From contig JAFTMR010000083.1 of assembly GCA_017452325.1 (NCBI GenBank), forward strand, positions 1 through 46,975: a stretch of DNA of 46,975 nucleotides, written 5' to 3'. A program made the position numbers and the translations under genes. The notes beneath the pieces were generated by a model that saw nothing but the letters and a program-made list of their open reading frames with translations, did not search any database and was not told the DNA's origin. This DNA is from Phascolarctobacterium sp. Its GTDB lineage: Bacteria > Bacillota > Negativicutes > Acidaminococcales > Acidaminococcaceae. Shown here one piece after another: positions 1,587-44,773 of this stretch (position 1 is its first letter; every line of letters starts with the position of its first letter).

Positions 1587-2357
1587 TTACCCTCTAAATA
1601 TCTGCACCCAGTAATGCCTGTATCCTTTGGCATCATCTTCCTTCAAAATATATCCTACCCCAAGTTCTTTAAACTGCGGGTCCAAAATATTTCTTCTATG
1701 ACCAGACGAATTCATCCATGACTGCATAACCTCTTCCGCACTACGCTGACCAGCCGCAATATTTTCTCCGATGCCGTAACCCTTTTTGTTGATTACGGTA
1801 TAACAAGGCTCTCCATTGGGACGAGTGTGGTCATATAAAATAGTAAGTTCCTTCGCCCTAATCGCTGCACCCTCTTGCAAATCACAAGCTAAGCGCAACG
1901 CTCGTAACCCTCTCTTAGTACGCTCTTCATTAACCAATTTTAAAATATTTTCTGCAAAATTCTTATCCACTTCCACATAGGTAGCGTTGGGATTTTGCTT
2001 TAGTCTTACAAAATTATCCTGTTGTGCCTCTTGGTACACATCTAAAGGAATTACATTAATTAAATATCTACGTTGGTAAGGTAATTTATAATCACCATTA
2101 ATATAGTAGCTCGCCTGCACAATCACCTTGCCAAGCTTGTACAAATACACCTCTTTACCACGTTCTGATAGAAGAATCTTTGCAGTACTATCAAGTACAG
2201 CATAATGCACATCACTTTGAGTATCCATTTTAAAGTAAGCACCTACTGGCATAAAAAGCTCTTCGTCGTAACTTGAAGAAGCATTGCACAGTTCAGTTGA
2301 TAAGCATAATACAATCAAGATTAATGTTACAATTATTCTATACAATATTTTTGACAT
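1587..2357 (-). CDS. Secreted CAP-domain (SCP-like) protein
   Basis: An N-terminal hydrophobic signal segment (KILYRIIVTLILIVLCLS...CNA) is followed by about 110 residues of unknown sequence, then a C-terminal CAP domain. Domain marks seen: LVNEERTKRGL, YDHTRPNGEPCYTV, GENIAAG, SGHRRNILDPQFKELGVGY and YWVQIFRG. These supply the His/Glu pairs of the CAP cavity. Bacterial CAP proteins are secreted or surface-exposed and mostly of unknown activity. The start at 2357 follows GAGGAA at 9 bases; in-frame starts at 2372 (ATG) and 2402 (GTG) are also possible. The gene follows the TPR-like gene by a short gap and is probably cotranscribed with it. Confidence 0.85.
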   Translation of the reverse strand: MSKILYRIIVTLILIVLCLSTELCNASSSYDEELFMPVGAYFKMDTQSDVHYAVLDSTAKILLSERGKEVYLYKLGKVIVQASYYINGDYKLPYQRRYLINVIPLDVYQEAQQDNFVRLKQNPNATYVEVDKNFAENILKLVNEERTKRGLRALRLACDLQEGAAIRAKELTILYDHTRPNGEPCYTVINKKGYGIGENIAAGQRSAEEVMQSWMNSSGHRRNILDPQFKELGVGYILKEDDAKGYRHYWVQIFRG

Positions 2358-2420
2358 TGTACAATTCCTCATCGTAAAAGCACCACCAACAATCTTAAAC
2401 ACTTACCCATCACATTCACC

Positions 2421-3260
2421 TCATAAATCATTATTTCTCGTCACATCTGTCATATAGTAAAGCAAAAATTCTTTGTCCACATTTTTAGCATCAGCAATCC
2501 ATAACCACTGCCTTTTGGCAACCGTATTCTCAAATAAATCATTGTAAAAAACATTTATGGTTTTGTGCTCTATCTTCTCATCCTCAAAGCCAAAGAATTT
2601 AAGTAAAAAAAAGCCTTTGGTTTCCTTATCCATCTTCTTTGCTTTCGCAAGCAATTCTTGGCACTTATCCCTATCATCTAGAACAAGATTAGCCAACGCC
2701 ATAACACGAACTAAATTGCTATTATCTTTCTTTTTCAGTTCAGCCTTGCATAAAGCAATGACTTTTTCCGCATGCTTTTCAGCTTGTTTTTGATATTTAG
2801 AATAGTTATTCCAAAACCTTACATCACCAGCATAGCAAGCAATGGCATAATCTAAGTTTGCCGTAATATCATCAGGATTTACTTCCAGCCTTTGCTTCAA
2901 AACAGCTTCCGCCTTTGCAAAGTAGCTTTTCGCATAAGATATACCACCTTTTGCACGCCAAACTTGTGACCCTAAAAGCAGGTAATCGCTATTAGAGGGT
3001 TCCAAAGCGCAAGCCTTGCTGATTTCAGATATTGCCTTAGCATACATCTTACTGCTTTCAATATTATCTCCAGTAATTTGCGCATTAAGATAAGCTTCAC
3101 AAGCACTGTTAAATAATTGCTGTCCAGCAACGCTATTAACACTTGCAGCTTGCTTAACGCTAGGTTGGATATTAGAAGCTACTACTTTAGCTTCGCCAGG
3201 CGAAACCTGCGTCAGTGTCGCCAATAACAATGCTGTTATACCTAATCCTAACCCTTTCAT
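2421..3260 (-). CDS. Secreted TPR-like protein of unknown function
   Basis: About 279 residues with a clear signal peptide (MKGLGLGITALLLATLTQVSPGEA). The mature part is helical, with TPR-like stretches: NSACEAYLNAQ, YAKAISEISKACALEPSNSDYLLLG and FAKAEAVLKQRLEVNPDDITANLDYAIACY. The recurring 'A..L.P.....L..G' pattern is typical of tetratricopeptide repeats. Such proteins act as periplasmic assembly scaffolds, which would fit the CsgG-rich neighbourhood, but the partner is unknown. The ATG at 3260 follows GGAGGTGCATGTT. A terminator separates it from the LPP20-like gene upstream, so it may start a separate transcript or depend on readthrough. Confidence 0.75.
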   Translation of the reverse strand: MKGLGLGITALLLATLTQVSPGEAKVVASNIQPSVKQAASVNSVAGQQLFNSACEAYLNAQITGDNIESSKMYAKAISEISKACALEPSNSDYLLLGSQVWRAKGGISYAKSYFAKAEAVLKQRLEVNPDDITANLDYAIACYAGDVRFWNNYSKYQKQAEKHAEKVIALCKAELKKKDNSNLVRVMALANLVLDDRDKCQELLAKAKKMDKETKGFFLLKFFGFEDEKIEHKTINVFYNDLFENTVAKRQWLWIADAKNVDKEFLLYYMTDVTRNNDL

Positions 3261-3277
3261 AACATGCACCTCCAACT

Positions 3278-4634: not shown

Positions 4635-6785
4635 TCACCAAGTAAATCTATAACCTAAGCTTACTCCGTAAGGCTTTTCTACCTTGTTGCCAAAGTCTCT
4701 TTCAACTTCAAGGTAGAAGCTATTGTTCTCGTCAATCTTACGGCTTGCACCAATAGCGCATTTCACCCAAGTACCTCCCATGTCATCTTCAACGGAACGC
4801 CCTGGCGCACTTACGTGAATCTTACCATCGAAGTCGTGCATAACTTCTGCCTTACCGTAATATTCAATGCCTTTAATATTCTTACCAACTTGAATACCTA
4901 AAGAAGCAATATTACTATAGCTGTTATCTGCGTGAATGCGAGTACCATGGTTATCAGTAAAATCTGCACTACCAACTCTACCCCAAGTTAAACCAACGGA
5001 AGGTTCATAGTACCAATCGTCTTTAAAAATTCTACGTCCGTACTTAGCAGCAATGGTAAACAAATCCTTATCGTACTCACCTGCAACAAAAATATCATTT
5101 TCATCATAGCCTGCGTAGGATTTATCAAGCTTACCGTACTTAACTACTAAATCGACGTAGTCATTGTTCTTTTTGCCAAGCCAGCTACCATAAGCATTAA
5201 AACCATAACCCTTGGTATCGCCAATAGCTTTATCGTCACATTCGTTTGTAGAATAAGTAAAACCTACACCTGCGAACAAAACGCCTGCATCATTTTTATA
5301 ATCCTAGTCGTAACCACCACTCATAATGTTGTGGTCGTAACTAAGGTTTCTAATTTTGGTTTCACCAGTTTCACCACGAACCCATACACCAATTTCGCTA
5401 GGGTCAGTACGCAAATCATTGAAGCGTTTGAAGATAGGTTCTACGTCTTCGACGAGGATATTGTGATCTATTTCTTGACCATCTTCCTCATCAGCTAAAT
5501 TATTCCCAGCATCTCTTGTCGTCCAACCAACAAAATCATAGTTGTTTGTAACATTATCTATCGATTGTTGTACTATTGGTGTGGCAACTTTTGTACTATT
5601 TCCAAAATAAACGTCATTTGCCTTAATAACCATATCTGATCCTACAGGTGTTTTGACAATTGTAATTTTATGATTATCTTCAGGTCTAATATCAACGCCA
5701 TTATTGTCATCTTTATTTCTAAGTTGAATATTTAAACAAGCAGCAGGAGTATCACCTAAAAATTCAAGACTATCACCAATATTGTTTAATAAATCTGTTT
5801 TAAGCTCTATTTTACCAGTTCCATCAGTACTAAAATTTTTAAGTTTTAAATTTGCATAATCATCAATACTCCACATACTTGCTGTATTTAATGCTTGAAT
5901 AACAATCAAACCACCATTCAATACTACCCCTTCAACACTCTCTTCTTGACCTATGGCATCCCAATATGCCCCATCATTTAAACCTAAATAAAATTTTTCA
6001 TTACTACCTTCTATGTTTCCCCCAAAAACATCATTACTATCTAAGCTAATAGTTGTTTGAGCATTAGCTCCATGTCTAACGGTACCCGAAATAAATTTAG
6101 TGTCATTTATTGATGCAGAGTCAGACTCGATTAATAAAGTCCCTTCATTATTTATAATTAGTTCACTACCGTCACCGATATTACCTATAGAACTGTTAGA
6201 AACAAAAGCCTCTGCTATAAGGGACACATCTCCACCTTTAATGGTTAAAAAGCCTAAATTATTTATATTTCCATAACTCAAAAGATTAATATTTTGTTCA
6301 TCACCAAATCTTCGTCCTTCTAACCCTCCACTAAATTCTATTATTCCATTGTTAGAATTATATATTTCCCCCACAAACACAACTTTATCTGTAAAAACAA
6401 GTGCTTTATCATTATTTTCAATAGATCTATAACTACCATTACTAATATCATTAAAAATACATAAATCGCCGGTAATTTTAGTCTTCGCACTGTTTTTTAA
6501 AGTTGCGAATGAATAAACATAATCCCTGTCACTACGTTTTTGTAAATTAATAGTAATCTGCCCATCATCCACATTTGAAACTTCAAATTTTAGTATACCA
6601 CTGTCACCTGAAATACCGTTATCATCACTACTGGTAGACTTATCAACAATGTTGTTACTCGAAGTAGTATTTATGATAATTTCATTTCCTACTCCTTCTT
6701 TTATTTCAAACGTATTTGCATTACATACGTTAATTCCATTAAAAACAAGACTCATCAGCACAGCTTTCGCTAAACGCCTCTTCAT
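4635..6785 (-). pseudogene. Autotransporter interrupted by an in-frame TAG
   Basis: Read through one stop, this is a single 716-codon frame. Its order is signal peptide (MKRRLAKAVLMSLVFNGINVCNA), a passenger of ~430 residues with beta-helix-like repeats (SNNGIIEF, GNINNLGFLTIKGG, NNEGTLLIES), a linker (EPIFKRFNDLRTDPSEIGVW) and an autotransporter beta-domain of ~260 residues ending in YGVSLGYRFTW, a classic C-terminal aromatic beta-signal. The stop is TAG at the complement of 5304-5306 (codon 494). The paralogue just upstream has Trp in the same place: GYD-W-DY against GYD-stop-DY. One TGG-to-TAG change therefore splits the barrel; no frameshift is involved. As it stands, the 493-residue product keeps the passenger but has no complete pore, so secretion should fail. 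A sequencing error or strain variant is possible. Confidence 0.85.
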
Positions 6786-6843
6786 AAAATTCACCTTAAT
6801 TCTTGGAGCGGTCTTCGCCACCCTACATTTTTTGTATTAGAAA

Positions 6844-7842: not shown

Positions 7843-8490
7843 TTATTTTTTACGCTTGCCATATAATCTGTTTTCTAAAATTTCTACTGCATTATAAGCA
7901 GCCTTTTGGATTGCGTTATGCACGCTTTCCTGAGTAACCTTTACAGTACCAATAGTAATACCTGCATTAAGAGTATTGATATCAACTAAGCTACTTTTAG
8001 AAACACCCTCACCTTTCGCCGCCATCACAATGTTACCAGTAGTAACATCCATAATTCTGGCAATAATATGAGATTTAACAGTGCAAACATTAACACCACT
8101 AAGCAATGTATTTACACCTGTTTCACTAACGGTAACGTCATTTACATTTCCGTAAATCAGGTATTTGCACTTTAAGGTTTCACCAATTACCTTGGCGCTG
8201 TCAGGGTCAATCAGTCCTTCCGTTTTAACATGTGCCGCTTCTAGTTGGCTTTTAACCATATCCTTATCCATTACTTCAAGCTTGCCATCATTGATAAGCT
8301 TGGTAATAATGTATTCCGAAGACATCTTTTCAGCATTAGCAAGTGCTACGTCACTTGTCGCCGCACCGGGATGTGTTCCAAAATCCATTACTGCAACAAC
8401 GGCGTGGTCTTCAATTAACCCTGCCAAAGCAACACTATTTATGGAAAGTGCCATTAAAACTACCAATAAAATTCTTTTAAACAAATCCAC
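7843..8490 (-). CDS. CsgG-family secreted protein (short)
   Basis: About 215 residues with a GTG start giving a clean signal peptide (MDLFKRILLVVLMALSINSVALA) after AAGGGAAGCGTTTTT; upstream TTG starts give a worse N-terminus. The mature part is almost exactly one CsgG domain: HAVVAVMDFG, NDGKLEVMDKDMVKSQL, CKYLIYGNV, HIIARIMDVTTGNIVMAAKGEG and the C-terminal helix VHNAIQKAAYNAVEILEN. CsgG forms the curli export pore in the outer membrane of E. coli, where it is a lipoprotein; here there is no lipobox Cys. It is the last of three CsgG-type genes in the operon. Substrate unknown. Confidence 0.82.
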   Translation of the reverse strand: MDLFKRILLVVLMALSINSVALAGLIEDHAVVAVMDFGTHPGAATSDVALANAEKMSSEYIITKLINDGKLEVMDKDMVKSQLEAAHVKTEGLIDPDSAKVIGETLKCKYLIYGNVNDVTVSETGVNTLLSGVNVCTVKSHIIARIMDVTTGNIVMAAKGEGVSKSSLVDINTLNAGITIGTVKVTQESVHNAIQKAAYNAVEILENRLYGKRKK

Positions 8491-8503
8491 AAAAACGCTT
8501 CCC

Positions 8504-9322
8504 TTATTTAACAAATAATTTATTTAAGTCACTGTCAGCAACAAGGGCATCCACAATTTTTTGTGCTGCCTTATCCATTGCCTTAGTGTACAAATTGGTA
8601 TTCAATTTATCACTGCCAACAGTAATAAAACCAATGCCATATTGTTTTTGGTCACCAATACCGGTTACGCGCTTCGTCCATACTACCTCACCGGTGCTTG
8701 CCTTAATAATACGCAAGTCGCTTTGCACGCCAATACCAGTGCGTTTCATACTAAAGCTTCCCAACATTCCTAAAGGATTAGGCACGCCACCTGCTCCCAT
8801 AAGATTAGAAGCTGCTTGCAACGCTTGCGAAACTTTTACCGCATCTTCATCCCACCAATCACCAGTACCAAGATTAATGATGGTACCTTGGATAAGATAT
8901 TCCGCACCATGAGCTTGTCCAATGCGTGATGTAATTTGCGGGGTAATAAACTGTCCGATAGAAGCAGTAGCAATAGATTGTGCCTTACTTTCATTAAATC
9001 CAGGACCTTCAAACATAGCATTGTAGTCTCCATAGTAAATTGCAGACCTTACACCTTGTAGTTCCCTAAGCTTTTCATCGTATAACAAAGCTTCAATTTT
9101 ACCATCAATGGGCTTCGTTTCTTTAAGATTAAACTTACCTGATACCAAAAGCTTTTCCATAACTAAGTCAGAAAGCGAAGCTGCTGATTCAATCTTGTCA
9201 AAGCGAGTATCATCCGTAAATTTCATCAAAATACAAGTTGGGTTTTCTGCTGCGTGTACAGCACTTGCATATAAGGATGTGCAAAGTGCCAAAGCGGTTA
9301 AAGCAATACTAATCTTTTTCAT
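8504..9322 (-). CDS. CsgG-family secreted protein
   Basis: 272 residues, signal peptide MKKISIALTALALCTSLYASAVHA. CsgG-like marks: CILMKFTDD, VMEKLLVSGKFNLKE, HGAEYLIQGTIINL, GVQSDLRIIKASTGEVVWTKRVTG and a C-terminal amphipathic helix AMDKAAQKIVDALVAD. Between the core elements it has a glycine-rich, mildly hydrophobic segment (LMGAGGVPNPLGMLGSFSM), which in CsgG-type pores is where membrane-inserting hairpins occur; that reading is inference. RBS GAGGTG precedes the ATG. The next gene starts 13 bases after its stop, consistent with one operon. Confidence 0.78.
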   Translation of the reverse strand: MKKISIALTALALCTSLYASAVHAAENPTCILMKFTDDTRFDKIESAASLSDLVMEKLLVSGKFNLKETKPIDGKIEALLYDEKLRELQGVRSAIYYGDYNAMFEGPGFNESKAQSIATASIGQFITPQITSRIGQAHGAEYLIQGTIINLGTGDWWDEDAVKVSQALQAASNLMGAGGVPNPLGMLGSFSMKRTGIGVQSDLRIIKASTGEVVWTKRVTGIGDQKQYGIGFITVGSDKLNTNLYTKAMDKAAQKIVDALVADSDLNKLFVK

Positions 9323-9337
9323 TCCAGCACCTCGCCA

Positions 9338-10147
9338 CTATTTTTTAGATTTCTTCGGTTTTTTTGTTACGTCTTTCACGCCTGCCGGAAGATTTAAATA
9401 TGTAGCATCCGGCGTAGCAGAAAACTCCTTAATTTTCACAATAGCTTTATGTCCATCTAAAGTACCATCCGGCAACACATAGTAGGATGCGGCTGCAATC
9501 TTCACCATTTTATTACCATTGAAATAATATCTAATGGCTTCCATCGTGCCATCATTATTAGTACGATAGTCTTCATAACTTAACCCATTGTCAAGCCAAC
9601 CGGAATCTACATATTTATATACAGGCATATCTGCTGATTTATGACTTGGTGGTAAAATTGCTGTAAGTAAACGTGTCATAACTTGGTCTGCATAACTTTG
9701 ACCGCTAATTGAAATTGCTTGCATATTTTTGTCACGTGCACTTACTTTGTTCTTTTTGCCTTGATCGCCATAATAAACATTTTTCTTGCCGTTAAAGTGC
9801 TTAGTAAAGAAATAAGCCTTATCACCCTTGGTAAGATTACACATACGCATATGTTCATAACCAACTTCTTCGTATTTATCATCGCCATTAATAACAATAA
9901 TGCCATCAAATTGACGATTGGTTAAAAAATGCGCCTTATCTACTGCCATACCATCAAAGCCATAAAAATGCACCTTGTCTTTATTGGTGGCACGTGGTAA
10001 AGGAGTAATGTTTTCATATTTTAAAGTAAACTTATTGTTTACAAGCAGCTGACGATAAATATCTAAATGATAGGCTTCTGCATCACAGGCAAAACCTAAA
10101 GAAAGCAACATTGCTCCCATCAATAAAGTTTTGAACATCTTATTCAT
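9338..10147 (-). CDS. Secreted protein of unknown function, paralogue of the upstream gene
   Basis: 269 residues from the ATG at 10147 (RBS AAGGAGGGCTGT, lying over the stop of the preceding gene). Signal peptide MNKMFKTLLMGAMLLSLGFACDAEA. I do not recognise a named family. The C-terminal part resembles that of 10158-10955: a YYFNGNKMVKI strand, then IVKIKEFSATPDATYLNLPAG. The pattern 'strand, short turn, aliphatic-P-x-G' recalls LolA/DUF4412-like beta-rich periplasmic proteins, but this is a guess. The N-terminus YRQLLVNNKFTLKYEN matches YRAILQSGNFLVEYGD of the neighbour. The tail KKPKKSKK is strongly basic. Confidence 0.7.
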   Translation of the reverse strand: MNKMFKTLLMGAMLLSLGFACDAEAYHLDIYRQLLVNNKFTLKYENITPLPRATNKDKVHFYGFDGMAVDKAHFLTNRQFDGIIVINGDDKYEEVGYEHMRMCNLTKGDKAYFFTKHFNGKKNVYYGDQGKKNKVSARDKNMQAISISGQSYADQVMTRLLTAILPPSHKSADMPVYKYVDSGWLDNGLSYEDYRTNNDGTMEAIRYYFNGNKMVKIAAASYYVLPDGTLDGHKAIVKIKEFSATPDATYLNLPAGVKDVTKKPKKSKK

Positions 10148-10157
10148 ACAGCCCTCC

Positions 10158-10955
10158 TTAATATTCCTCAACCAGTACAGGCTGTTCAATCAAATCGTTC
10201 ATATCGCCAATACCAACTGCGTAAACCTTGCATCCTTTAGGAATAGCAAAGGTTTCAGGCGGAACTTCATTGGTAATCTTCTTTACTATAAATTCATTCA
10301 TGGGATATTCGGTTCCATTTTTCTTGAAAATCTTTTTAACGAATATCAATTCCCCATCGTCGTAATAATAAAGATAATTAGTTTCTGACATAACCGCACC
10401 TGTTTGACTACGCATAGCCATAACATACTTATCGCAATCATATTCCTTCTTATCAATTAATTCCTTACTACTACCAACGAATTTGGGTACAACCATTACA
10501 TCCGATTCAAATCTAAATGGATCGTAATTACACAATGCAAAAAACTCTTCTGGAACAGCCAAAGCGTACTGCGCATAGTTCCACCCACCCGCAGGATCAA
10601 GGCAGGGGTCCTTTAGTTGGTTCCAAGTTGCCATAGTAGCTTTCTTCTTAGATTCAAACTTGTAATATTTACCAGCTTTGTACAATGTATCGGGATAATC
10701 TTTTTTACCTTTACCACCAATACCTACCGCAAGACCTACTAGCCCTCCACCTTTGACCTTATAAGAGCTACGCTCCATACGCATATCATTTGCGGCAGCA
10801 ATTGTCTTGGTAAAATACGCATCACCATATTCAACCAAGAAATTACCCGACTGCAAAATAGCACGGTACTTATTTGCAGCCGGTTGTTCTGCAAAGGAAG
10901 TGACAGCCATCGTAGTCAATGCTAATGTCATTGCTAAAATTGATTTGTTCACCAT
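10158..10955 (-). CDS. Secreted protein of unknown function
   Basis: 265 residues, signal peptide MVNKSILAMTLALTTMAVTSFA. Like its neighbour it opens with YRAILQSGNFLVEYGD and ends with a beta-rich part: YLYYYDDGELIFVKKIF, then EFIVKKITNEVPPETFAIPKG. Both proteins thus share an N-terminal 'YR..L....F...Y' motif and a C-terminal 'P.G' motif while the middles differ. It contains GGGLVGLAVGIGGKGKK, a glycine-rich patch. GGAGG precedes the ATG by 4 bases and the following GTG by 7, so the start may be one codon later. It sits inside the CsgG operon and its role is presumably linked to that envelope complex. Confidence 0.7.
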   Translation of the reverse strand: MVNKSILAMTLALTTMAVTSFAEQPAANKYRAILQSGNFLVEYGDAYFTKTIAAANDMRMERSSYKVKGGGLVGLAVGIGGKGKKDYPDTLYKAGKYYKFESKKKATMATWNQLKDPCLDPAGGWNYAQYALAVPEEFFALCNYDPFRFESDVMVVPKFVGSSKELIDKKEYDCDKYVMAMRSQTGAVMSETNYLYYYDDGELIFVKKIFKKNGTEYPMNEFIVKKITNEVPPETFAIPKGCKVYAVGIGDMNDLIEQPVLVEEY

Positions 10956-10975
10956 TAAACCTCCATAATAAATTT

Positions 10976-12682
10976 CTAAAAACCGGTTTTAATCTTTAAT
11001 TGCTTGCCGTTATTTAAAGTAGTCATAAGACCAGTTTTACCGTAAATAGCATCTCGCACTGCCTTACTAATAGCGTTGCGAACTTGTACATCAGATACCA
11101 CAGCAGTACCAATTACGATGCTGTAATTTTCTGCAACTTCATCATAGGTTATAAACTTATCTTCAGTACTGGTACTAGTACTATTATTTGCTTTTGTTGC
11201 TACAGTGTCTTGGTAGTCGTTATCGTACTCATGTGCTCTTTCTCCATTATTAACATACTGGGAACTGCGGTCATCCTGAATATTACTATTGAAACTACCA
11301 TCTTGATTTCTTCTGCTTTCATCTTGGAATTGGTTATTCTCAAACTCATTAAAACTGCTTTGGCTACCAGCTTTACCCTTTAAACTTTGTTCATCTTTGT
11401 ACTGTGAATTATCGGTAATTGTACGATTATCCATCTGTTGATGTGTCGCATCCATATTATTGGTATACCTACGCTTATAATCTTCATCGTAGGTAGAACC
11501 ACCACTAACATTTCCTGTTTGGGTATTATCTTGAACGCCAACTCCTATTTTTGTTCTATCACTATGAGCTTCTCCACCAGAAGAATTTGTATAGTACTCT
11601 GCATCTTTGTTGTAAACAGTTACGTCCCAAGTTTGGTCTTGATTCTTACCCCAAACAGTACCCTCGGCAGGTCCGCCGCTCGTTTTAAGCCCAGAACTAC
11701 CTTCCTTCCAGTTACTATTATTAGTTTCGGTTTCAACACCTACTTGAACACCAGTCTGATTATATCGTTCTTGATGATGGTATCCCGTATCTTTATTATG
11801 AGAAATATCATCATTAATTCTTTGATTTACATCCAATGTTTCTTCTGAATAGCCGCGATTAGTATGCATAGAACTTGCGGAGCCAGATTGTCTACCCTGC
11901 ATATCAATTTGACTACTACTTTGCGAACTGCCGCCCCTATTAGAGCTACTACTGCCTTTATTTGTAGTAACATCAGAGAAATTCATATTATCATTTTGTA
12001 CATAACTATTATTTTGTTTATCAGTAATAGTTCTGTTGTCAGTATCCTTAGTCTTAGTATTTTGACGTGTAGCCTGTGTAATTACTTCATCTTTTATATC
12101 GTTCACAACTGTATTAGAAATGTTTTTGGCACGTAAATTTTCTTTTGTTCTATACTTAGTAAAACCAATCTCTGTCATCGTACTAGTGGAACTACCCTTA
12201 CCAATACCAGCAGCAACAATTCTACCAGTTTCAATATCTACAATACGTATTGCTACATTAGCATTTACTACATGTTGGGCATTACTTGCTTTGGCATTAT
12301 GCGCGCGTATACCCGCAATATTTTCTTTAGCAGTTAAACCAGTAACATTACCAATTACCATAAACTGCGCACCCAGAACTTTGCCCATTTGTACCGCTGT
12401 ACCCTGGTCTACCAAACCGGACATATTAATGGCATGCATTTTGGCAATGGTACTAAGCTGTTCGTAATCTATCAAATCAAACCAACCACAATTGGAAAGC
12501 TGATAAATTGCATATTCTGTAGCCATTGCCATATCATGACCACGCAATCCTCTACTGGTAATTGCCTTGTTACCAAATTCCATTACTGCAACAGTAGGAT
12601 AATCCTTTATATTAGCTGCACTTGCGAAATTAGCAGCCAAGCACAACATAGGTACTACAATCCATTTCGTAAACTTATTCAT
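10976..12682 (-). CDS. CsgG-family protein with large Asn/Ser/Asp/Gln-rich insert
   Basis: 568 residues from the ATG at 12682 (GAGGTGCAGTTT upstream). Signal peptide 1-22. Residues ~27-170 are a CsgG domain: YPTVAVMEFG, CGWFDLIDYEQLSTIAK, GAQFMVIGNVTGL, VNANVAIRIVDIETGRIVAAG. The domain's last helix reappears only at ~520-550: SIVIGTAVVSDVQVRNAISK. In between lie over 300 hydrophilic residues rich in Asn, Ser, Asp, Gln, Gly and Thr with regular Tyr and almost no large aliphatics; DNRTITD occurs twice. The shorter paralogue at 7843 joins the same two parts with only about ten residues. The insert looks disordered or amyloid/adhesin-like. No family for the insert was recognised. Confidence 0.8.
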   Translation of the reverse strand: MNKFTKWIVVPMLCLAANFASAANIKDYPTVAVMEFGNKAITSRGLRGHDMAMATEYAIYQLSNCGWFDLIDYEQLSTIAKMHAINMSGLVDQGTAVQMGKVLGAQFMVIGNVTGLTAKENIAGIRAHNAKASNAQHVVNANVAIRIVDIETGRIVAAGIGKGSSTSTMTEIGFTKYRTKENLRAKNISNTVVNDIKDEVITQATRQNTKTKDTDNRTITDKQNNSYVQNDNMNFSDVTTNKGSSSSNRGGSSQSSSQIDMQGRQSGSASSMHTNRGYSEETLDVNQRINDDISHNKDTGYHHQERYNQTGVQVGVETETNNSNWKEGSSGLKTSGGPAEGTVWGKNQDQTWDVTVYNKDAEYYTNSSGGEAHSDRTKIGVGVQDNTQTGNVSGGSTYDEDYKRRYTNNMDATHQQMDNRTITDNSQYKDEQSLKGKAGSQSSFNEFENNQFQDESRRNQDGSFNSNIQDDRSSQYVNNGERAHEYDNDYQDTVATKANNSTSTSTEDKFITYDEVAENYSIVIGTAVVSDVQVRNAISKAVRDAIYGKTGLMTTLNNGKQLKIKTGF

Positions 12683-12697
12683 AAACTGCACCTCTTC

Positions 12698-13786
12698 TTA
12701 CATACTTACTTCTAAAGTATTTTCCGTAGCTTTTTCCATAAATAAACTGTAGTTATCACGTAAGCCACGATAAATTTGAGTAGGTTTCAAATCGCTATCA
12801 ACTTCAATGATTCCTTTGCCGTTATCATATGAACGAATAAACGCTTCGTTTACTCCACCAATCTCTTTTAATGCTGCTTCCAATTTATAAATATTGTCCT
12901 GATTATCCGTCCTAACAATCACACGCATATACTTAGAAACATTGGCTGCCTTCATTGAAAATACTTTTCTGAGATTTTCAGCAGCGCTAATACCTAACTG
13001 TTTTACAGCTTGGTTTTCTGTATTGTTAGCATTACCCTGCATTCCATTAGCTTCCACTCTAAAGTTACCAATAATTTCTTGGGTATCTGTTTTCATAATC
13101 TTTACATCCAGCTCTGCTAGAGATTTAACCAAGCCCGTACTAACACTCGGATTATAGCTACTACCATTCGCTAAATCACGATAGCTAGGAATATTTACAC
13201 CTTCCGTATTTATATCAAGCCTTCCAAACGCAATGTAATCAGTTTCACCATTTCGTGTCATTACATTTTGGCGTTCATCTTTGATAACACCAGAATCTAC
13301 AACATGATTAAATCCAAGCTCAATAAGCTTGTTATTCATTGTTGCTTCACATATTGTGGGATACTTACTACGAACCCTTCCTTTACTATCATCATAGTAT
13401 TCAACAACTACCGCAATTCTTGGGTCATTGAGTAACATTATCATATTCAGCTTGTTCATCAATTGAGCATCCGGATTAGTATCAACGTCAATACGAGCCT
13501 TAACTCTGTATTCACCACTAAGTTCTGCTTCGTCCAAAATGTTAATATTCTTTACGAACCCTTGGGACTTGGCATAAATCTCATCCAATGCCACAACAGA
13601 TTTATCTACCAAAGTACGCGAATCTATATACGTGCCTATAACATTTTCTACCGCATTGCGCATCGCATCACGTACAGCGCTATCTTTATCAATCCCCACA
13701 CCATCAACGGTTACCTCCTGTGCTAGAGCAGCATTAGCAAATAACAAGCAGCCTGCCAATAAACTCAATACCTTTTTTACATACAT
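12698..13786 (-). CDS. FlgT/LPP20-like secreted protein, first gene of the surface operon
   Basis: About 362 residues. Signal peptide MYVKKVLSLLAGCLLFANAALA, then a FlgT-N/LPP20-like domain with the typical 'A...A...A' helix: VTVDGVGIDKDSAVRDAMRNAVENVIGTYI, followed by SQGFVKNINILDEAELSGEYRVKARIDVD. The C-terminal half has a second alpha/beta region (FGRLDINTEG, SLAELDVKIMKTDTQEIIGNF, ISAAENLRKVF). This arrangement resembles Vibrio FlgT, which supports the flagellar H/T ring together with FlgO and FlgP. No flagellar gene is present here, so a different envelope structure is likely. The ATG at 13786 was chosen; a GTG at 13798 sits inside the Shine-Dalgarno stretch. Family placement is tentative. 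Confidence 0.72.
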   Translation of the reverse strand: MYVKKVLSLLAGCLLFANAALAQEVTVDGVGIDKDSAVRDAMRNAVENVIGTYIDSRTLVDKSVVALDEIYAKSQGFVKNINILDEAELSGEYRVKARIDVDTNPDAQLMNKLNMIMLLNDPRIAVVVEYYDDSKGRVRSKYPTICEATMNNKLIELGFNHVVDSGVIKDERQNVMTRNGETDYIAFGRLDINTEGVNIPSYRDLANGSSYNPSVSTGLVKSLAELDVKIMKTDTQEIIGNFRVEANGMQGNANNTENQAVKQLGISAAENLRKVFSMKAANVSKYMRVIVRTDNQDNIYKLEAALKEIGGVNEAFIRSYDNGKGIIEVDSDLKPTQIYRGLRDNYSLFMEKATENTLEVSM

Positions 13787-13911
13787 ATTTCTCTTCACCT
13801 CGTCTTACAACTTTTCAGGTGGTGCAATATAAATTCACCCTATATTTATTTTTACAACTTTTTATGTTTTATCTGTGTCAAATTCGCAACTTCTATCACT
13901 GTTTATTCTAT

Positions 13912-13939
13912 ATTATACAACTTTTTATATTTTACGCAA
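13912..13939 (-). promoter_or_regulatory. Candidate promoter of the CsgG/FlgT-like operon
   Basis: Minus strand TTGCGT (complement of 13934-13939), 16 bp, TATAAT (complement of 13912-13917). The region 13850-13955 is very AT-rich and carries repeated ACAACTTTTTAT/ACAACATTTTAT blocks (near 13854, 13917 and 13938), which could be binding sites for the divergent XRE regulator. Confidence 0.5.
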
Positions 13940-14014
13940 CATTTTATACAACCTCTTGAAAGGCACTTTTCACCAGTGATGTACTATAATATTCTGTAAA
14001 CGGAGGTATTTACA

Positions 14015-14332
14015 ATGTATGAGGATTTTGTTTCCCAACGTATAAGACAGTTGCGTAAGCAAAAAAAGATTTCTGCGCGAGAGATGAGTTTGGCAATCGG
14101 ACAGAATGTTAACTATATAAATCGTATTGAACATAAATACAACTTGCCTTCTTTGCAAGGCTTGTTTTATATTTGCGAGTATTTTAATATTTCACCTAAG
14201 GAGTTTTTTGATGGTACTGGTAAAAATAACCCACTCAAGCTTCAAGAGGCAGTCCAAGTTTTAGCATCCCTAGAAGATGAGGAAATATCCTTAATTATTG
14301 AAGTCGCTAAAGCCATTCAAAACAAAAAATAA
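14015..14332 (+). CDS. XRE-family helix-turn-helix regulator, divergent from the surface operon
   Basis: 105 residues. HTH at about 5-60: RIRQLRKQKKISAREMSLAI, GQNVNYINRIEHKYNLPSL, FYICEYFNISPKEFFD. The C-terminal ~40 residues (LQEAVQVLASLEDEEISLII) are helical and acidic and may dimerise. RBS GGAGGT lies 8 bases before the ATG; a TATAAT at 13986-13991 is a likely -10. The position, divergent and ~230 bases from the first gene of the CsgG/FlgT-like operon, suggests a local regulator of it. This is inference; the AT-rich repeats between them are candidate operators. Confidence 0.85.
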   Translation: MYEDFVSQRIRQLRKQKKISAREMSLAIGQNVNYINRIEHKYNLPSLQGLFYICEYFNISPKEFFDGTGKNNPLKLQEAVQVLASLEDEEISLIIEVAKAIQNKK

Positions 14333-14334
14333 AA

Positions 14335-14374
14335 GGTGTATTCAAAACTACAATAGCTTTGAATACACCTTTTT
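14335..14374 (+). terminator. Rho-independent terminator of the XRE gene
   Basis: GGTGTATTCAAA and TTTGAATACACC form a perfect 12-bp stem around an 11-nt loop, followed by TTTTT. It starts three bases after the stop codon. Confidence 0.92.
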
Positions 14375-14424
14375 AATATTTTTAAAACACTATTCATAAA
14401 CGCACCTTGTTTTTTTAGAAAACT

Positions 14425-14459
14425 CCGAGTAAAATAAAGTTAGACTTTATTTTACTCGG
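14425..14459. repeat. Perfect palindrome, left flank of the DUF4143 gene
   Basis: Two perfect 16-bp arms (CCGAGTAAAATAAAGT and its complement) around a TAG loop, ending 16 bases before the ATPase start codon. A related copy lies at 15796-15840 in inverted orientation (loop CTA), so the pair brackets the gene like terminal inverted repeats. In the transcript the right arm CUCGG could also compete with the CCGAGG just upstream of the ATG, which contains the ribosome site. Confidence 0.8.
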
Positions 14460-14475
14460 AAACCGAGGTGAATTT

Positions 14476-15702
14476 ATGTATATTACTCGTCATTTAGAAA
14501 CACAAATTATAGAAGCTTCTAAATTTTATCCTGTAGTTATGGTTTGTGGACAACGGCAAGTTGGCAAATCTACCATGCTTAACCATATTAAAGAAGATAA
14601 CCGCAAATATGTAACTTTAGATGATAGAAATGCTCGTCGCCTTGCTTCTACCGATCCTGCATTATTTTTTGAAACATACGGCTACCCATTACTTATTGAT
14701 GAATTCCAACGAGTACCTTCCATCCTGCTTGAAATGAAAAAAATAGTTGACCAGAAGGCACTTGACGGTGAAGATAATAGTGGTATGTTTTGGCTGACTG
14801 GCTCGCAAAAATTCAAGATGATGAAAGATGTTTCTGATTCTTTGGCTGGACGAGTTGCTATTTTTGATATGGCAAGCCTTTCAACAGCAGAATTAGAACA
14901 ACGTCCAGCAATGTTGTTCCATCCTGCCTTACCATCCATACGCGAAAGATTAAAACATTCTTTCAATAAAAACATACAGCAAATCTATGAAGACATCTTC
15001 CGTGGTGGTATGCCCAAACTTCGTACAACCTCTCTTGACCGCGATCGCTTTTATATGGACTACATCAACACCTATATTGAACGCGATATAAAAGATTTAG
15101 CTCAGGTTGGAAAGCTAAATGAATTCTACGACTTCCTAGTTTTTATGGCAGCAAGAACTGGTCAAGAATTAAAATACGAAGACATATCTAATGCCATTGG
15201 TATTTCTTCCCCTACTGCTAAATCATGGATTTCTATTTTGGAACGTTCTGGTGTCATCTTTATCTTGCGTCCATATTTTTCTAACATTACTAAACGATTA
15301 GTAAAAACACCGAAGATTTATTTTATGGATACAGGTTTAGCCGCTTACCTTTGTCGTTGGCCTAATGCAGAAACATTAGCCAATGGAGCTATGGATGGTG
15401 CCTTTCTCGAAACATATGTAGTTAGTGAAATAGTAAAAAGTTATTATAATGCAGGCAAACCAGTTGATTTATATTATTATAGAGACATTGATAAAAAAGA
15501 AATTGATTTGCTCGTAGTAGAAGGCGATAAAATGTATCCTATTGAAATTAAAAAGAGCAAAGAACCCTCTAATCCAGACAAAAACTTCAATGTTCTACAA
15601 CAATTCAAATTAGACATTCAACCTGGCATCATCTTGTGTATGAGTTCAGAACTTATTCCTTACAATAGAACATCTTGGTATTGTCCCATCTCCGTCCTAT
15701 AA
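14476..15702 (+). CDS. AAA+ ATPase with DUF4143 C-terminal domain
   Basis: 408 residues. An N-terminal AAA_14 ATPase has Walker A GQRQVGKST (~25-33), Walker B LLIDEFQ (~72-78) and sensor-like WLTGSQKF. A DUF4143 region (~200-400) includes YIERDIKDLAQVG, a winged-helix-like stretch (ISNAIGISSPTAKSWISILE), FMDTGLAAYL and a nuclease-like end, EIDLLVVEG...YPIEIKKSK, with D and ExK in PD-(D/E)XK-like spacing. Family members are widespread, often multicopy and without settled function. RBS CGAGGTGAATTT. It is monocistronic, has its own terminator and is bracketed by related palindromes, as if moved as a unit. A different family member is at 38732. Confidence 0.92.
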   Translation: MYITRHLETQIIEASKFYPVVMVCGQRQVGKSTMLNHIKEDNRKYVTLDDRNARRLASTDPALFFETYGYPLLIDEFQRVPSILLEMKKIVDQKALDGEDNSGMFWLTGSQKFKMMKDVSDSLAGRVAIFDMASLSTAELEQRPAMLFHPALPSIRERLKHSFNKNIQQIYEDIFRGGMPKLRTTSLDRDRFYMDYINTYIERDIKDLAQVGKLNEFYDFLVFMAARTGQELKYEDISNAIGISSPTAKSWISILERSGVIFILRPYFSNITKRLVKTPKIYFMDTGLAAYLCRWPNAETLANGAMDGAFLETYVVSEIVKSYYNAGKPVDLYYYRDIDKKEIDLLVVEGDKMYPIEIKKSKEPSNPDKNFNVLQQFKLDIQPGIILCMSSELIPYNRTSWYCPISVL

Positions 15703-19322: not shown

Positions 19323-20423
19323 TTATCCGCGCAGCCAGGGCGGAATTTCAGTGTTATCACGAGCAGGGAACGGTCTTACAGGAGAAGCTGGTCTGTCACT
19401 GTTTTCCGGATTTTGAATGGTTTGCGCACCATAGGAGGGACGATACCCAGCTTTACCAGTACCGGTCACAGCAGGGTTCTCTTCCTTGAAGCCAGTAGCA
19501 ATTACGGTTACACGAATTTCATCTTCTAAAGATTCATCAATAACCGCACCAAAGATAATATTCGCATTAGGATCAACTGCTTCGGTAATAATATTGGAAG
19601 CTTCGCTTACATCAAACAAGGACAAATCCTTGCCACCGGTAATATTGAACAGTACACCTTGAGCACCGTTAATGGAAGCTTCTAAAAGCGGACTCTTAAT
19701 TGCAGCTTCAGCAGCAGCCATGGCACCACCTTCGCCCTTGGCAGTACCAATACCCATTAAAGCACTGCCTGCATTAGACATAATAGTTCTAACGTCAGCA
19801 AAGTCTGCATTAATCAAACCGGGAACGCCAATCAAATCAGAAATACCTTGTACACCCTGACGGAGTACATCGTCAGCAATACGGAATGCATCCAGCATTG
19901 AGGTTCTTCTATCAATAACTTGCAATAATTTATCATTGGGAATAGTAATAAGGGTATCAACCTTAGCCTTCAAGCTTTCAATGCCGCTCAAAGCCTGGTT
20001 CATACGACGTTTGCCTTCAAACATAAAGGGCTTGGTAACAACGCCAACAGTCAACGCACCAACTTCTTTAGCACATTCAGCAACCACATGCGCAGCACCG
20101 GTACCAGTACCACCGCCCATACCGGCAGTAACGAATACCATATCTGCACCTTTCAATACTTCCAAAATCTGTTCACGAGATTCTTCAGCAGCCTTTTCAC
20201 CAATTTCAGGATTTGCGCCTGCGCCCAAACCTTTAGTAAGCTTTTCACCAATTTGAATACGGGTTTCTGCTTTGGACAGCATCAATGCTTGCGCATCACA
20301 GTTCACAGCGATAAACTCAACGCCTTTTACTCCGGCAGTAATCATACGGTTTACAGCATTATTGCCACCGCCACCAACACCAATGACCTTAATGTTAGCT
20401 AATGCTTCAAATTCTTCAAACAT
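19323..20423 (-). CDS. ftsZ: Cell division protein FtsZ
   Basis: 366 residues. GTPase features: [18 protein letters not shown], the tubulin signature GGGTGTGAA at about 107-115, [10 protein letters not shown] and [11 protein letters not shown] (T7 catalytic loop). After the globular core comes a short variable linker and the C-terminal peptide IPPWLRG, which binds membrane tethers. ftsA, usually just upstream, is absent here, so the tether for that peptide must be encoded elsewhere or be another protein (SepF is common in Firmicutes). It has a plausible own promoter at 20500. Confidence 0.98.
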
Positions 20424-20499
20424 ATTCCACGTTCCCCCTTATAACTCCTGGGATTCAATTTATATAAAAATAAAAAATTACTAAATTCATACATTCAAC

Positions 20500-20508
20500 A
20501 TTATAACA
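20500..20508 (-). promoter_or_regulatory. Extended -10 promoter element upstream of ftsZ
   Basis: Minus strand TTGTTATAATG carries TG-n-TATAAT (TATAAT is the complement of 20500-20505). It lies in an AT-rich 180-bp gap between ftsQ and ftsZ, about 80 bases before the ATG. No clear -35, as is usual for extended -10 promoters. Confidence 0.5.
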
Positions 20509-20606
20509 AAAATATCCTGCTAATATTTTACTTTTTTCCCAAGAAAAACTCAAGATTTAGAAACATTAACTGGTAAATTTTTCTTATTGCCACCACATCT
20601 AGAATA

Positions 20607-21395
20607 TTACTTTCTTTTACTATTGACGGTTTCTTTAAGCTTAATATAGGGTTTAGAGTAAGTTAAATCTATATACTCTGCAACAATCTTCTTACCCCTT
20701 ATTTCATTGAAAACAGTCATGAATAATTCTGTTTTATTCTGTAATTCCACAACAGAGCCAAGCAGAATAGGAAATCCTACCTTTAGTTGAATTTTGACAT
20801 TCTTTTCCTTATCAATAACAATCTCTACAAATTGATTTTGAGCCTCTAAATCAACAGCGTTAAGAAATTGTAATATACTTAAAACCTCTTTATTTTCTAC
20901 GACATCACCAATGTACAAGCTACCACAATTCTCACCGGTAAGCATTGGCGCATCATCATCAGGAATACCACTGGTAACATCCATAACAGTGCCACAGTAA
21001 CCAAGCTTGGCATAACCTTGGTAAGCATTTTCGACATATAAAGCAGGCTGACGTTCCTTAACATTTATGTGCAAAACGCCAGGCCATTTGTATTCTGCAT
21101 AAGCAGTTTTAAATCGTACATCATGGCGCAAGGCCTCCTGCACCTTATCTGCATCAACATTCCACATATTGAAAGGTTTTTGCGAGCCTGCCAATTGTAA
21201 AATTTCAGCTTCTGTTAATTGCTTAGTCCCATGAATTGCCACACTACCGCAAGCAAAATTAGGTCTGTGCAGATAATGATAGATACCTGCAAACACCGCA
21301 GCGATAACCGCAAATATAGATAGAAGGCGCAGCATACGCAAACGGCGTTGTTTACGACGTACTCGCAATTTTTCACGCATTGTCAGTTCTTGCAT
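20607..21395 (-). CDS. ftsQ: Cell division protein FtsQ/DivIB
   Basis: 262 residues from the ATG at 21395, which follows AAAGGAGGTAGCATA. The open frame extends upstream only because it reads through a repeat element. Order: a basic cytoplasmic head (KLRVRRKQRRLRMLRLL), one transmembrane segment (SIFAVIAAVFAGIYHYL), a POTRA domain (FACGSVAIHGTKQLTEAEIL ... WPGVLHINVKERQPALYVEN) and an FtsQ beta-domain (LQFLNAVDLEAQNQFVEIVI). It would link FtsL/FtsB with the septal synthase in the periplasm. It is second to last of the division genes, before ftsZ. Confidence 0.92.
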   Translation of the reverse strand: MQELTMREKLRVRRKQRRLRMLRLLSIFAVIAAVFAGIYHYLHRPNFACGSVAIHGTKQLTEAEILQLAGSQKPFNMWNVDADKVQEALRHDVRFKTAYAEYKWPGVLHINVKERQPALYVENAYQGYAKLGYCGTVMDVTSGIPDDDAPMLTGENCGSLYIGDVVENKEVLSILQFLNAVDLEAQNQFVEIVIDKEKNVKIQLKVGFPILLGSVVELQNKTELFMTVFNEIRGKKIVAEYIDLTYSKPYIKLKETVNSKRK

Positions 21396-21423
21396 TATGC
21401 TACCTCCTTTAATCCACAAGCAA

Positions 21424-21544
21424 GAAATAGTTAGAAGTGCCGGAAGGCGCGAAGCAACGAAATTCGTGAAGCGACGGCGTACTAAGCGTACGTCGAGCAA
21501 GCGAATGAGTTGCGACAAAGCATAACGGTGCTTATAACTATTTC
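21424..21544. repeat. 121-bp MITE-like element with terminal inverted repeats between ddl and ftsQ
   Basis: Ends are 18-bp inverted repeats, GAAATAGTTAGAAGTGCC and the complement of GGTGCTTATAACTATTTC (15 of 18 matching). The inside contains smaller palindromes (ACGAAATTCGT, GCGTACTAAGCGTACG). The right terminal repeat contains the last Lys codon and the TAG stop of ddl. GC content is higher than the flanks. No ORF of its own is convincing. The shape is that of a non-autonomous transposable element or a structured intergenic repeat. Confidence 0.75.
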
Positions 21545-22476
21545 GCTGTCAGCAAAATCATTTCGCATAAAGAAGCAAAGTCGATACCTACTGCCGCTGC
21601 TTCCTTAGGTACCAAACTAGTAGCGGTCATACCAGGAATGGTATTCGCTTCCAATACATAGCCAATGTTTTTCTCATCAAGCATTACGTCAATACGGGCA
21701 ACACCACTCAAGCCAAGCACCTTGTAAGTTTCCAAAGCTAATCCTTGTACATAGGCAGTAACCTCTTCGCTCAAAGGTGCAGGCACTAAATAATCAGTAG
21801 CGCCAGTAGTGTATTTGGAATGGTAGTCGTAAGACCCGGAGTGAGGTGCAATCATTACGATGGGCAATGCCTTGGGCTCGCCATCCGCTTCCATTACCCC
21901 ACAAGTCAATTCCTTGCCATCAATACATTCTTCAACTAAAACTAAATCACTGTATTTAAAAACATTTTCCAAAGCAGTATGCACATCAGCTTCAGCCTTA
22001 ACGATTTCCACACCGATACTGGAGCCTTGGTCGGCAGCCTTAATTACTACGGGCACACCGAAGGTTGCGATAATCTCTTGTTCAATCAACGCCATATCTT
22101 TATCGTAGCGTTTATTATACATCAGGCATTTAGGAGTGCTGATATTTGCAGAAAGCAGGAAGCGTTTAGTAGCAACCTTATCCATTGCAACTGCGCTAGC
22201 CAAAACACCACTACCGGTGTAGGACATCTTTACTGCTTCCAAAATACTTTGCAAGCGGCCATCTTCACCATACATCCCATGTACAGCGTTAAAAACAACC
22301 TTAGCGTCAAGGTCACGCAAATCTTCTACTAATTTCTCAGGAACAAGCTCTACTTCCACAGCGTTGTATCCCTTAGTACGCAAAGCTTCCGCAATAGCAG
22401 CACCAGTTCTACGGGAAACTTCTGCTTCGGAAGAAGGACCACCTAAAACAACAGCTACAACATCTTGTTTATTCAT
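21538..22476 (-). CDS. ddl: D-alanine--D-alanine ligase
   Basis: 312 residues, ATP-grasp. Seen: VVLGGPSSEAEVSRRTG, VFNAVHGMYGEDGRLQ, YTGSGVLASAVAMDKVATK, VVIKAADQGSSIGV, VEECIDGKELTCGV and YVLEANTIPGMTATSLVPKEA. These cover the substrate, Mg and ATP sites. It makes D-Ala-D-Ala for the MurF step. The ATG overlaps the murC stop (ATGA). murB, often located here, is missing. The stop codon lies in the terminal repeat of the element at 21424-21544. Confidence 0.96.
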   Translation of the reverse strand: MNKQDVVAVVLGGPSSEAEVSRRTGAAIAEALRTKGYNAVEVELVPEKLVEDLRDLDAKVVFNAVHGMYGEDGRLQSILEAVKMSYTGSGVLASAVAMDKVATKRFLLSANISTPKCLMYNKRYDKDMALIEQEIIATFGVPVVIKAADQGSSIGVEIVKAEADVHTALENVFKYSDLVLVEECIDGKELTCGVMEADGEPKALPIVMIAPHSGSYDYHSKYTTGATDYLVPAPLSEEVTAYVQGLALETYKVLGLSGVARIDVMLDEKNIGYVLEANTIPGMTATSLVPKEAAAVGIDFASLCEMILLTAK

Positions 22477-23855
22477 TTATTTTTACGCTCCAATTCTCTA
22501 ACCAGTTCTTCCCCAACCTTGAACACGTCACCCGCGCCTACAGTGAGAATTAAATCCCCAGCAGCAGCCTTTGCTTCCAAATATTCTTCTGCTTTGGCAA
22601 GCTTGGGAATATAGGTTACTTCTTTACCCAATGCTTTACGCACACCTTTTGCCAAAGCTTCGGAGGTAATGCCGGGAATGGGCTCTTCGCTGGCAGCATA
22701 GATATCTGTAAGAATTAACTCGTCACAATCCGCAAAGCAGTTACAAAATTCATTGAACAATAACTTAGTACGACTATAACGATGGGGTTGGAACAAGCAC
22801 AGCAAACGTTCCGGTTGGGTTTGACGTGCCGCTTTTAAAGTAACTTCAATTTCAGTGGGATGATGGGCATAATCATCAACTACCCACACGCCGCCAACCT
22901 TACCCTTAGTTTCAAAGCGTCGCTTCGCTCCGCCAAACCTTGCCAAGGATGCCAAAATACTTTCAGTTGTAATACCCATTTCTCTTGCCGCAATAAATGC
23001 ACCTACAGAATTAAGCACATTATGACGACCGGGAACGATAAGTCTAACATCAGTAATGAATTCATCTTTATAGTACAGCTTGTAGGTAGTGCCATCCACA
23101 CCATAGCAAATTTCCTTAGCCACGTAGTCAGCATCTTCCAAGCCGTAAGTAATAACTTCTTTAGCGGTTTCCTGTGCCAATGCTTTTACTTTAGCATTAT
23201 CAACACACAAAATTGCCTTGCCACTCTCGGTTAAATTACCTAAAAATTCCTTGAATGCAGCGTAAATTTTTTCTTCCGTACCGTAATAGTCAAGGTGGTC
23301 ATCTTCAATATTGGTTACGATAGCAAGGTACGGGTTCAGTTTTAAGAAAGAACCGTCACTTTCGTCAGCTTCTGCCACTACAAAGCGTCCTTGACCGTTC
23401 CAGGCATTACCACCCAAAGTACTTACTTCGCCACCGATAACAACGGTAGGGTCAATATTGCCTTCCACTGCGATACAGGAAATCATAGCACTGGTAGTAG
23501 TCTTGCCATGAGCACCTGCTACTGCCACACCATCACCTTGATTAAAGATGGCAGCAAGCAGATCGCTTCTGTGATAAACAGGAATGCCCTGCTCCTTGGC
23601 AGCAACAACTTCCGGGTTATGAGGGTTAATGGCAGTGGAAACAACTACTGCCTCTGCATCAGCATCACTAACTTGGCAGGCATCATGCCCCATGAATACC
23701 ATGGCACCTTCATTTGCCAAGCGTGCAGAAATGCGTCCTGCATTTAAGTCAGAACCACTAACATTATAACCACGCTTTATTAAAACATAGGCAATGGCGC
23801 TCATGCCTGCGCCGCCAATACCGATGAAGTGAAAATTTCGCAATTTATCTAACAC
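22473..23855 (-). CDS. murC: UDP-N-acetylmuramate--L-alanine ligase
   Basis: 460 residues, GTG start after GGAGGTTCTCCT. The N-terminal domain reads HFIGIGGAGMSAIAYVL; the central ATPase P-loop is VAGAHGKTTTSAMI; EADESDGSFL and IVTNIEDDHLDYYG follow, and the C-terminal domain has VDDYAHHPTEIEVTLKAA and FQPHRYSRT. It adds L-Ala to UDP-MurNAc. It forms a tight block with murG upstream and ddl downstream. Confidence 0.97.
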   Translation of the reverse strand: MLDKLRNFHFIGIGGAGMSAIAYVLIKRGYNVSGSDLNAGRISARLANEGAMVFMGHDACQVSDADAEAVVVSTAINPHNPEVVAAKEQGIPVYHRSDLLAAIFNQGDGVAVAGAHGKTTTSAMISCIAVEGNIDPTVVIGGEVSTLGGNAWNGQGRFVVAEADESDGSFLKLNPYLAIVTNIEDDHLDYYGTEEKIYAAFKEFLGNLTESGKAILCVDNAKVKALAQETAKEVITYGLEDADYVAKEICYGVDGTTYKLYYKDEFITDVRLIVPGRHNVLNSVGAFIAAREMGITTESILASLARFGGAKRRFETKGKVGGVWVVDDYAHHPTEIEVTLKAARQTQPERLLCLFQPHRYSRTKLLFNEFCNCFADCDELILTDIYAASEEPIPGITSEALAKGVRKALGKEVTYIPKLAKAEEYLEAKAAAGDLILTVGAGDVFKVGEELVRELERKNK

Positions 23856-23868
23856 AGGAGAACCTCCT

Positions 23869-24972: not shown

Positions 24973-24989
24973 GGGGATTCCTCCTCATT

Positions 24990-26348: not shown

Positions 26349-26367
26349 GCTAATGCGCCCCCTAAAT

Positions 26368-27342: not shown

Positions 27343-27362
27343 TACCAGTTCCCCCAATAAAT

Positions 27363-30223: not shown

Positions 30224-30244
30224 AACATTACCTCCAAAAGTGAA

Positions 30245-30292
30245 AGAGCAGCCAAAAGGCTGCCTCTCTAAAATCTTATAAAAATTATACCA
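30245..30292 (-). promoter_or_regulatory. Internal promoter and leader hairpin before murE
   Basis: Minus strand TGGTATAAT (TATAAT is the complement of 30284-30289) is an extended -10 promoter. About 20 bases on, AGAGGCAGCC-TTTT-GGCTGCTCT forms a stable stem (30245-30268) followed by a weak U-rich stretch and the murE ribosome site. The hairpin could be a partial terminator or a 5' stabiliser. Confidence 0.6.
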
Positions 30293-30315
30293 CAAAGACC
30301 GCTAAAAGGCTACGC

Positions 30316-39943: not shown

Positions 39944-39966
39944 TTTGACCACCTCCGTTTGCATAT

Positions 39967-43430: not shown

Positions 43431-43443
43431 TTATTCCCACTCG
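43431..43443. repeat. Attachment-site copy at the guaA 3' end
   Basis: TTATTCCCACTCG, the last codons and stop of guaA; identical to 37495-37507. The guaA reading frame is kept through the stop. Confidence 0.8.
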
Positions 43444-44738: not shown

Positions 44739-44773
44739 GATTATCCTCCTCATATAATGAATACCACTTTTTA

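Follow-up and report, generated by a model that had tools for sequence, protein, structure and literature searches.

A conserved CsgG-, FlgT- and FlgP-type operon of Negativicutes that may encode a non-flagellar, non-curli outer-membrane assembly

A single minus-strand operon of Phascolarctobacterium sp. encodes three CsgG-family proteins, an FlgT-like protein, an FlgP/LPP20-like protein and a pair of homologous secreted proteins, and its core gene order recurs in two families of Negativicutes. The parts are of known kinds; their combination is undescribed as far as the literature searched shows, no description of this locus having been found under CsgG together with Negativicutes, Selenomonas or dockerin. 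The reading that we favour, tentatively and without granting it an even chance, is that the operon specifies an outer-membrane ring or pore assembly of neither flagellar nor curli kind, with a periplasmic collar and LolA-type carriers, that serves surface proteins; its oligomerisation, topology, transport and clients are what we infer.

The window (46,975 nucleotides, the whole stretch of DNA analysed) is an entire contig, C74, of a 1.8 Mb assembly in 119 contigs that is ~90% complete. The operon runs from 13786 to about 1587 (Table 1), and leftwards from 13786 the series is P0010, P0009, P0008, P0007, P0006, P0005, P0004, a split autotransporter, P0001, and the TPR and CAP genes. The first eight genes are tightly packed, neighbours being about 6-22 bases apart or slightly overlapping. 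An earlier note on this DNA had proposed a minus-strand operon, and this proved real, all of the genes lying on that strand at or adjoining the positions it gave. Its claim that every product has a signal peptide needs correcting for the ORF at 4635-5279, which is the downstream piece of an autotransporter gene split by an in-frame TAG; since this ORF and that at 5304-6821 make up one gene, the former lacks a separate signal peptide. The TAG (5304-5306) may reflect a genuine nonsense change, a switch or an error of assembly, and in a sister species (L023, 12832-14988) the same gene is uninterrupted. Elsewhere in the window, a T-box leader (Rfam) lies near the contig end (154-361, minus strand), a division and cell-wall cluster with FtsZ and several Mur ligases lies upstream of the operon at 19323-30295, with NrdR and TrkH/TrkA genes in between, and the GMP synthase-like ORF at 43431-44789 may be internally shortened, its amidotransferase domain match covering only positions 1-76 of 190.

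Table 1. Features of the operon and its upstream flank, in window coordinates
Feature	Position	Strand	Description
P0010, FlgT-like	12698..13798	-	FlgT N and M domains; at the C-terminus, where FlgT_C would be expected, a predicted ferredoxin-like segment; likely ATG start 13786
P0009 (CsgGa), CsgG family	10976..12691	-	Large insert at the second hairpin region
P0009 insert	11168..12157	-	~330 residues, codons 179-508, Asn/Ser/Thr/Asp/Gln-rich
P0008 (U1)	10158..10955	-	Secreted; predicted LolA/RseB-type fold; no Pfam family
P0007 (U2)	9338..10147	-	Secreted; U1 homologue; no Pfam family; longest ORF to 10189
P0006 (CsgGb)	8504..9322	-	Divergent CsgG-family member, strongly conserved
P0005 (CsgGc)	7843..8514	-	CsgG family
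P0004	6844..7821	-	Autotransporter beta-barrel, short N-terminal region
Split autotransporter, passenger and barrel	4635..6821	-	In-frame TAG at 5304-5306
P0001	3341..4456	-	FlgP/LPP20-like SHS2 domain, then Tp0624-type domain
TPR protein	2421..3275	-	Conserved neighbour of the LPP20 gene
CAP-domain secreted protein	1587..2402	-	18 bases from the TPR gene in the window
Cro/C1-type HTH gene	14015..14332	+	Divergent; conserved beside the operon
GTTGYR repeats, six, same strand	13806..13957	-	Candidate operator of the HTH protein

By profile search the P0008 family is present in 50 of 380 Negativicutes genomes, from the window's family and one other, Selenomonadaceae to judge by the named loci. 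When 84,980 species were scanned with two sequence patterns of the P0006 family, 45 named loci came back, all of them in Negativicutes, with Selenomonas ruminantium HD4, Schwartzia, Anaerovibrio slackiae and an oral Selenomonas among the carriers. The order recurring among these loci is FlgT–CsgGa–U1–U2–CsgGb–CsgGc, and adjacency was counted for U1-U2 in 35, U2-CsgGb in 34, CsgGb-CsgGc in 26, CsgGa-U1 in 24 and FlgT-CsgGa in 22; the genes hardest to separate are the trio U1–U2–CsgGb. Synteny across genera and two families rules out a chance gene order, and the conservation among relatives that the earlier note had left to be checked is thus found. The operon has a scattered distribution in the window's own family, where 10 of 59 genomes have P0010 relatives. 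Between the TPR and CAP genes of four relatives (L023, L025, L028 and L029) there are a CsgG-family gene and a second FlgT-like gene; the one such CsgG-family gene scanned is a CsgG–FlgT_C fusion (FlgT_C 5.8e-8), and the pair is absent from the window. The earlier note had mentioned neither this pair, seen in relatives only, nor the P0009 insert and the divergent HTH gene.

Assignment of three proteins to the CsgG family, as first proposed, is borne out by Pfam scores of 55.6 bits for P0009, 24.9 for P0005 and 22.2 for P0006, all above the cut-off of 20.8. The P0009 family profile matches solved CsgG at 7e-8, and P0009 matches E. coli CsgG at 95% by hhalign; P0006 gave no significant hhalign match to E. 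coli CsgG, and 21 of 23 P0006 homologues match the CsgG Pfam model. In alignment, the presumed hairpin segments of P0005 and P0009 are similar in length to those of CsgG. The likeness to the CsgG channel of the curli system (CsgEFG) lies in a secreted protein with a CsgG-family domain; the differences are that here there are three paralogues, a large insert at the second hairpin, no lipobox, no curlin, and partners of FlgT, FlgP and LolA type. CsgG and FlgP are lipoproteins, unlike the module proteins as judged by the lipobox pattern, which was found in 0 of 48 CsgGa sequences, not in P0001 and in 1 of 40 members of its family; in the other module families hits were scattered, inside signal peptides only, and none was convincing. 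This fits reports that Negativicutes lack LolA and LolB (PMC5007114) and the Lol system (PMC5491611).

The FlgT-like and LPP20-like assignments made earlier likewise stood. P0010 matches FlgT_N weakly (0.0042), and 13 of 22 P0010 homologues match it, the best at 8e-6. In the predicted structure of P0010 (pLDDT 77, pTM 0.49) the top PDB match is Vibrio FlgT (3w1e, 1.8e-9), aligned over model residues 27-285; for the middle domain there are matches to PelC (Z 12.0), TolB (Z 10.9) and CsgG, and the C-terminal segment is ferredoxin-like, with no FlgT_C match. With the PelC dodecamer, LpoB and the TolB N-domain the resemblance is in this middle domain, and the difference is that no Pel or Tol partners were identified in the operon. 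The P0001 family matches Campylobacter FlgP structures at 2.7e-19, and the C-terminal half of P0001 matches 5jir (3e-9), Treponema Tp0624. P0010 also gave a hit to the model of Leptospira LipL46 at 1.1e-6, well short of the cut-off set for that model; in LipL46 and Tp0624 themselves the domains are combined otherwise. The alignment of P0001 with C. jejuni FlgP is gap-free through the ring-forming hairpin region of the SHS2 domain, and a hairpin insert in FlgP-type domains correlates with ring formation (PMC12222027). Compared with the H/T rings and basal disk of Vibrio and Campylobacter (FlgT, FlgO, FlgP), the operon shares the FlgT N and M domains and an FlgP-type SHS2 domain with its hairpin region, but the window's family has no flagellum, the FlgT C-terminal domain seems to be replaced and there is no lipoprotein pattern. 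Taken together, family and structure comparisons place these proteins in the CsgG, FlgT and LPP20/FlgP folds and families; of the two outcomes that would have counted against the earlier note, a failed fold placement and a cluster conserved in no relative, neither was observed.

P0008 and P0007, called two related secreted unknowns in the earlier note, are indeed homologous (hhalign 94%, E 1e-7). No relevant Pfam match, LolA included, was found among the 24 and 21 members of their respective families, and neither profile matched the PDB sequences. The P0008 model (pLDDT 85) has structural matches to LolA, LolB, RseB, MucB and LprG, the highest being to Bacteroides LolA (VIA Z 9.8, 170 residues, rmsd 4.6). 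As modelled, P0008 has a LolA/RseB-type half-barrel fold, and since Z is at most 9.8 this is a statement about fold and not function; from its homology alone, P0007 probably shares that fold. What sets the pair apart from the LolA/LolB/RseB superfamily is its tandem encoding within a CsgG operon and its lack of Pfam membership.

P0009 has 571 residues in the window, against about 220-290 in most relatives, because of the ~330-residue insert, which is rich in N, S, T, D and Q and has 17% hydrophobic residues. The alignment places it between two strands that match the second membrane hairpin of CsgG, and at the same site the G057 orthologue carries a pair of type-I dockerin repeats (4e-16). Dockerin modules usually lie outside the cell, and on the analogy of CsgG the insert would point outwards. 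The insert DNA of the window and that of G023, a sister species that is the nearest relative examined (it matches L078, Phascolarctobacterium sp. from roe-deer caecum), share 98-100% identity (about 99%), as against mostly 75-87% (~80%) for the flanking operon DNA; 8 of the 330 insert codons differ, 2 of them nonsynonymously, as against 40 in the first 178. Because the near-identity extends to synonymous sites and the flanks do not share it, the comparison points to recent exchange of the insert segment; purifying selection is unlikely, as synonymous changes are scarce too. At that identity the cassette was found in G000 and G023 only. The autotransporter passenger behaves in the opposite way, at 53-66% identity. 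A second near-identical tract (14354-15567), in an AAA_14/DUF4143 gene beside the operon, is about 96% identical to G023 in DNA, with flanks of about 65-90%; another AAA_14/DUF4143 gene lies at 38732-39988.

The secreted neighbours that lie between and after the core genes vary by locus, and include autotransporters, ricin-lectin and dockerin proteins, SH3 proteins with CHAP or M23 peptidases, as well as C-type lectin/VWA and RTX-type proteins. Among 67 neighbour proteins scanned, ricin lectin was found 6 times, dockerin 6, M23 5, SH3 3 and CHAP 2. Dockerin ORFs in module-bearing genomes number about 14, and 8 of them are no more than 12 kb from the module; if the chance per ORF is put at 2%, the binomial probability is 7e-11, both that chance and the ORF count being estimates. 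Cohesins, which would be cellulosome-type partners in the same genome, were looked for in the module-bearing genomes tested, and 0 turned up. The P0009 insert, its cassette exchange and these dockerin, lectin, SH3, peptidase and autotransporter neighbours are three features that are new here. Several further observations concern such proteins outside the module. An Acidaminococcaceae contig (G022:C110, 5734-11826) holds a 2557-residue ORF with a cohesin and, likewise in a 2557-residue ORF, a dockerin, an arrangement that is scaffoldin-like and possibly a contaminant; two Selenomonadaceae contigs (G166:C220 and G218:C228), distinct from the known module contigs, hold ORFs of 680 to 928 residues with many dockerin repeats; and at three Selenomonadaceae loci (L074, L067 and L061) large RTX-like proteins with no obvious signal peptide adjoin the module.

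In the intergenic region upstream of P0010 there are six same-strand GTTGYR repeats, against 0.3 expected, and AAAGTTGTA occurs in three exact copies in the window, all among these repeats. Similar repeats are present in two relatives, and a Cro/C1-type HTH gene stands beside the operon in several. It is a reasonable guess that the repeats form an autoregulated operator of the HTH protein.

That a conserved gene set stands beside fast-changing surface proteins hints at machinery for building or supplying the cell surface. On the ring or pore reading this would be a dedicated outer-membrane assembly of Negativicutes, working like the curli exporter or the flagellar outer ring while being neither. 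P0009 and P0005, and possibly P0006, would assemble into oligomers within or beneath the outer membrane; P0010 and P0001 would form a periplasmic collar; and P0008 and P0007 would act as periplasmic carriers, bringing hydrophobic or unfolded clients to the assembly. The clients would be the adjoining fast-evolving surface proteins, autotransporters here and dockerin, lectin, SH3 or RTX proteins in relatives, and the insert of P0009 would be exposed on the outside of the cell. Of the ring or secretion device put forward in the earlier note, the families, the conserved cluster and the separateness from flagella and curli stand, and the device itself is what we infer from them. Several observations count against a ring or pore: the first arm of the presumed hairpins of P0005 (AAKGEGKSKSS) is polar and does not look like a clear membrane strand; P0009 and P0006 relatives have matches to LpoB as well, which belongs to the CsgG fold group and has a soluble domain; autotransporters normally need Bam/Tam only; and the client genes change from one locus to the next, so that no single client is established.

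A structural collar or a lipid or lipoprotein route fits much of the same evidence. As a collar, which we consider somewhat unlikely, the CsgG/LpoB-, FlgT- and FlgP-like proteins would be stacked between peptidoglycan and outer membrane and transport nothing, stiffening the envelope or holding adhesins, with P0008 and P0007 as RseB-like sensors or stabilisers. The LpoB matches agree with this, as do RseB and MucB among the P0008 fold matches and the SH3, CHAP, M23 and CAP cell-wall proteins that adjoin the module, and in flagella both FlgT and FlgP have a structural role, as ring proteins (PMC12222027); yet a collar leaves unexplained the recurrent U1-U2-CsgGb triplet standing alone beside large surface proteins.

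An elaboration that would make more of the insert, and that we hold to be unlikely, is an export and display machine: a CsgG-type ring with an exchangeable surface-loop cassette (Asn-rich spacer or dockerin), a LolA-type carrier pair and FlgT/FlgP-type collars, for sticking to fibre, cellulosomes or neighbours.

That LolA, LolB and LprG dominate the P0008 fold matches would suit a route in which the LolA-type pair delivers lipids or acylated proteins to a CsgG/FlgT-like outer-membrane receptor and so stands in locally for the Lol system that is missing, the more so as outer-membrane lipoproteins are predicted in Negativicutes (PMC5491611) despite the reported absence of LolA and LolB. Present in only 50 of the 380 genomes, however, the module is not a general route; its proteins have no convincing lipobox, and no LolCDE-like inner-membrane gene was identified in the conserved block, and we judge this route improbable.

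Separateness from curli and flagella, which the earlier note had asserted, is well founded. Curlin (PF07012) is absent from 26 of 26 carrier genomes (E. coli control positive), ruling out a curli system in these. Acidaminococcaceae are reported to have no flagella (PMC5491611), and an accessory ring of the H/T type, surviving as a relic in non-flagellated relatives, is very improbable even with FlgT and FlgP relatives in the operon and FliG in 17 of 18 Selenomonadaceae carriers, for all eight Acidaminococcaceae carriers tested (G000 and seven related genomes) lack FliG and keep the operon or parts of it, ruling out a flagellar relic in the window's family, and no flagellar family is among the listed domains of the 67 neighbour proteins.

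The ring or pore assembly that we favour would add to what surveys of diderm Firmicutes have left standing, namely no LolA/LolB and many outer-membrane proteins whose function is unknown; the locus itself is a concrete, conserved entry point to the outer-membrane biology of these bacteria, and cultured carriers (Selenomonas ruminantium HD4, Anaerovibrio slackiae) make it testable. It also hints at a joint use of flagellar and curli ring folds for something other than motility and curli, and rumen Negativicutes, though the carriers' own genomes gave no cohesin, may use dockerin-bearing surface loops.
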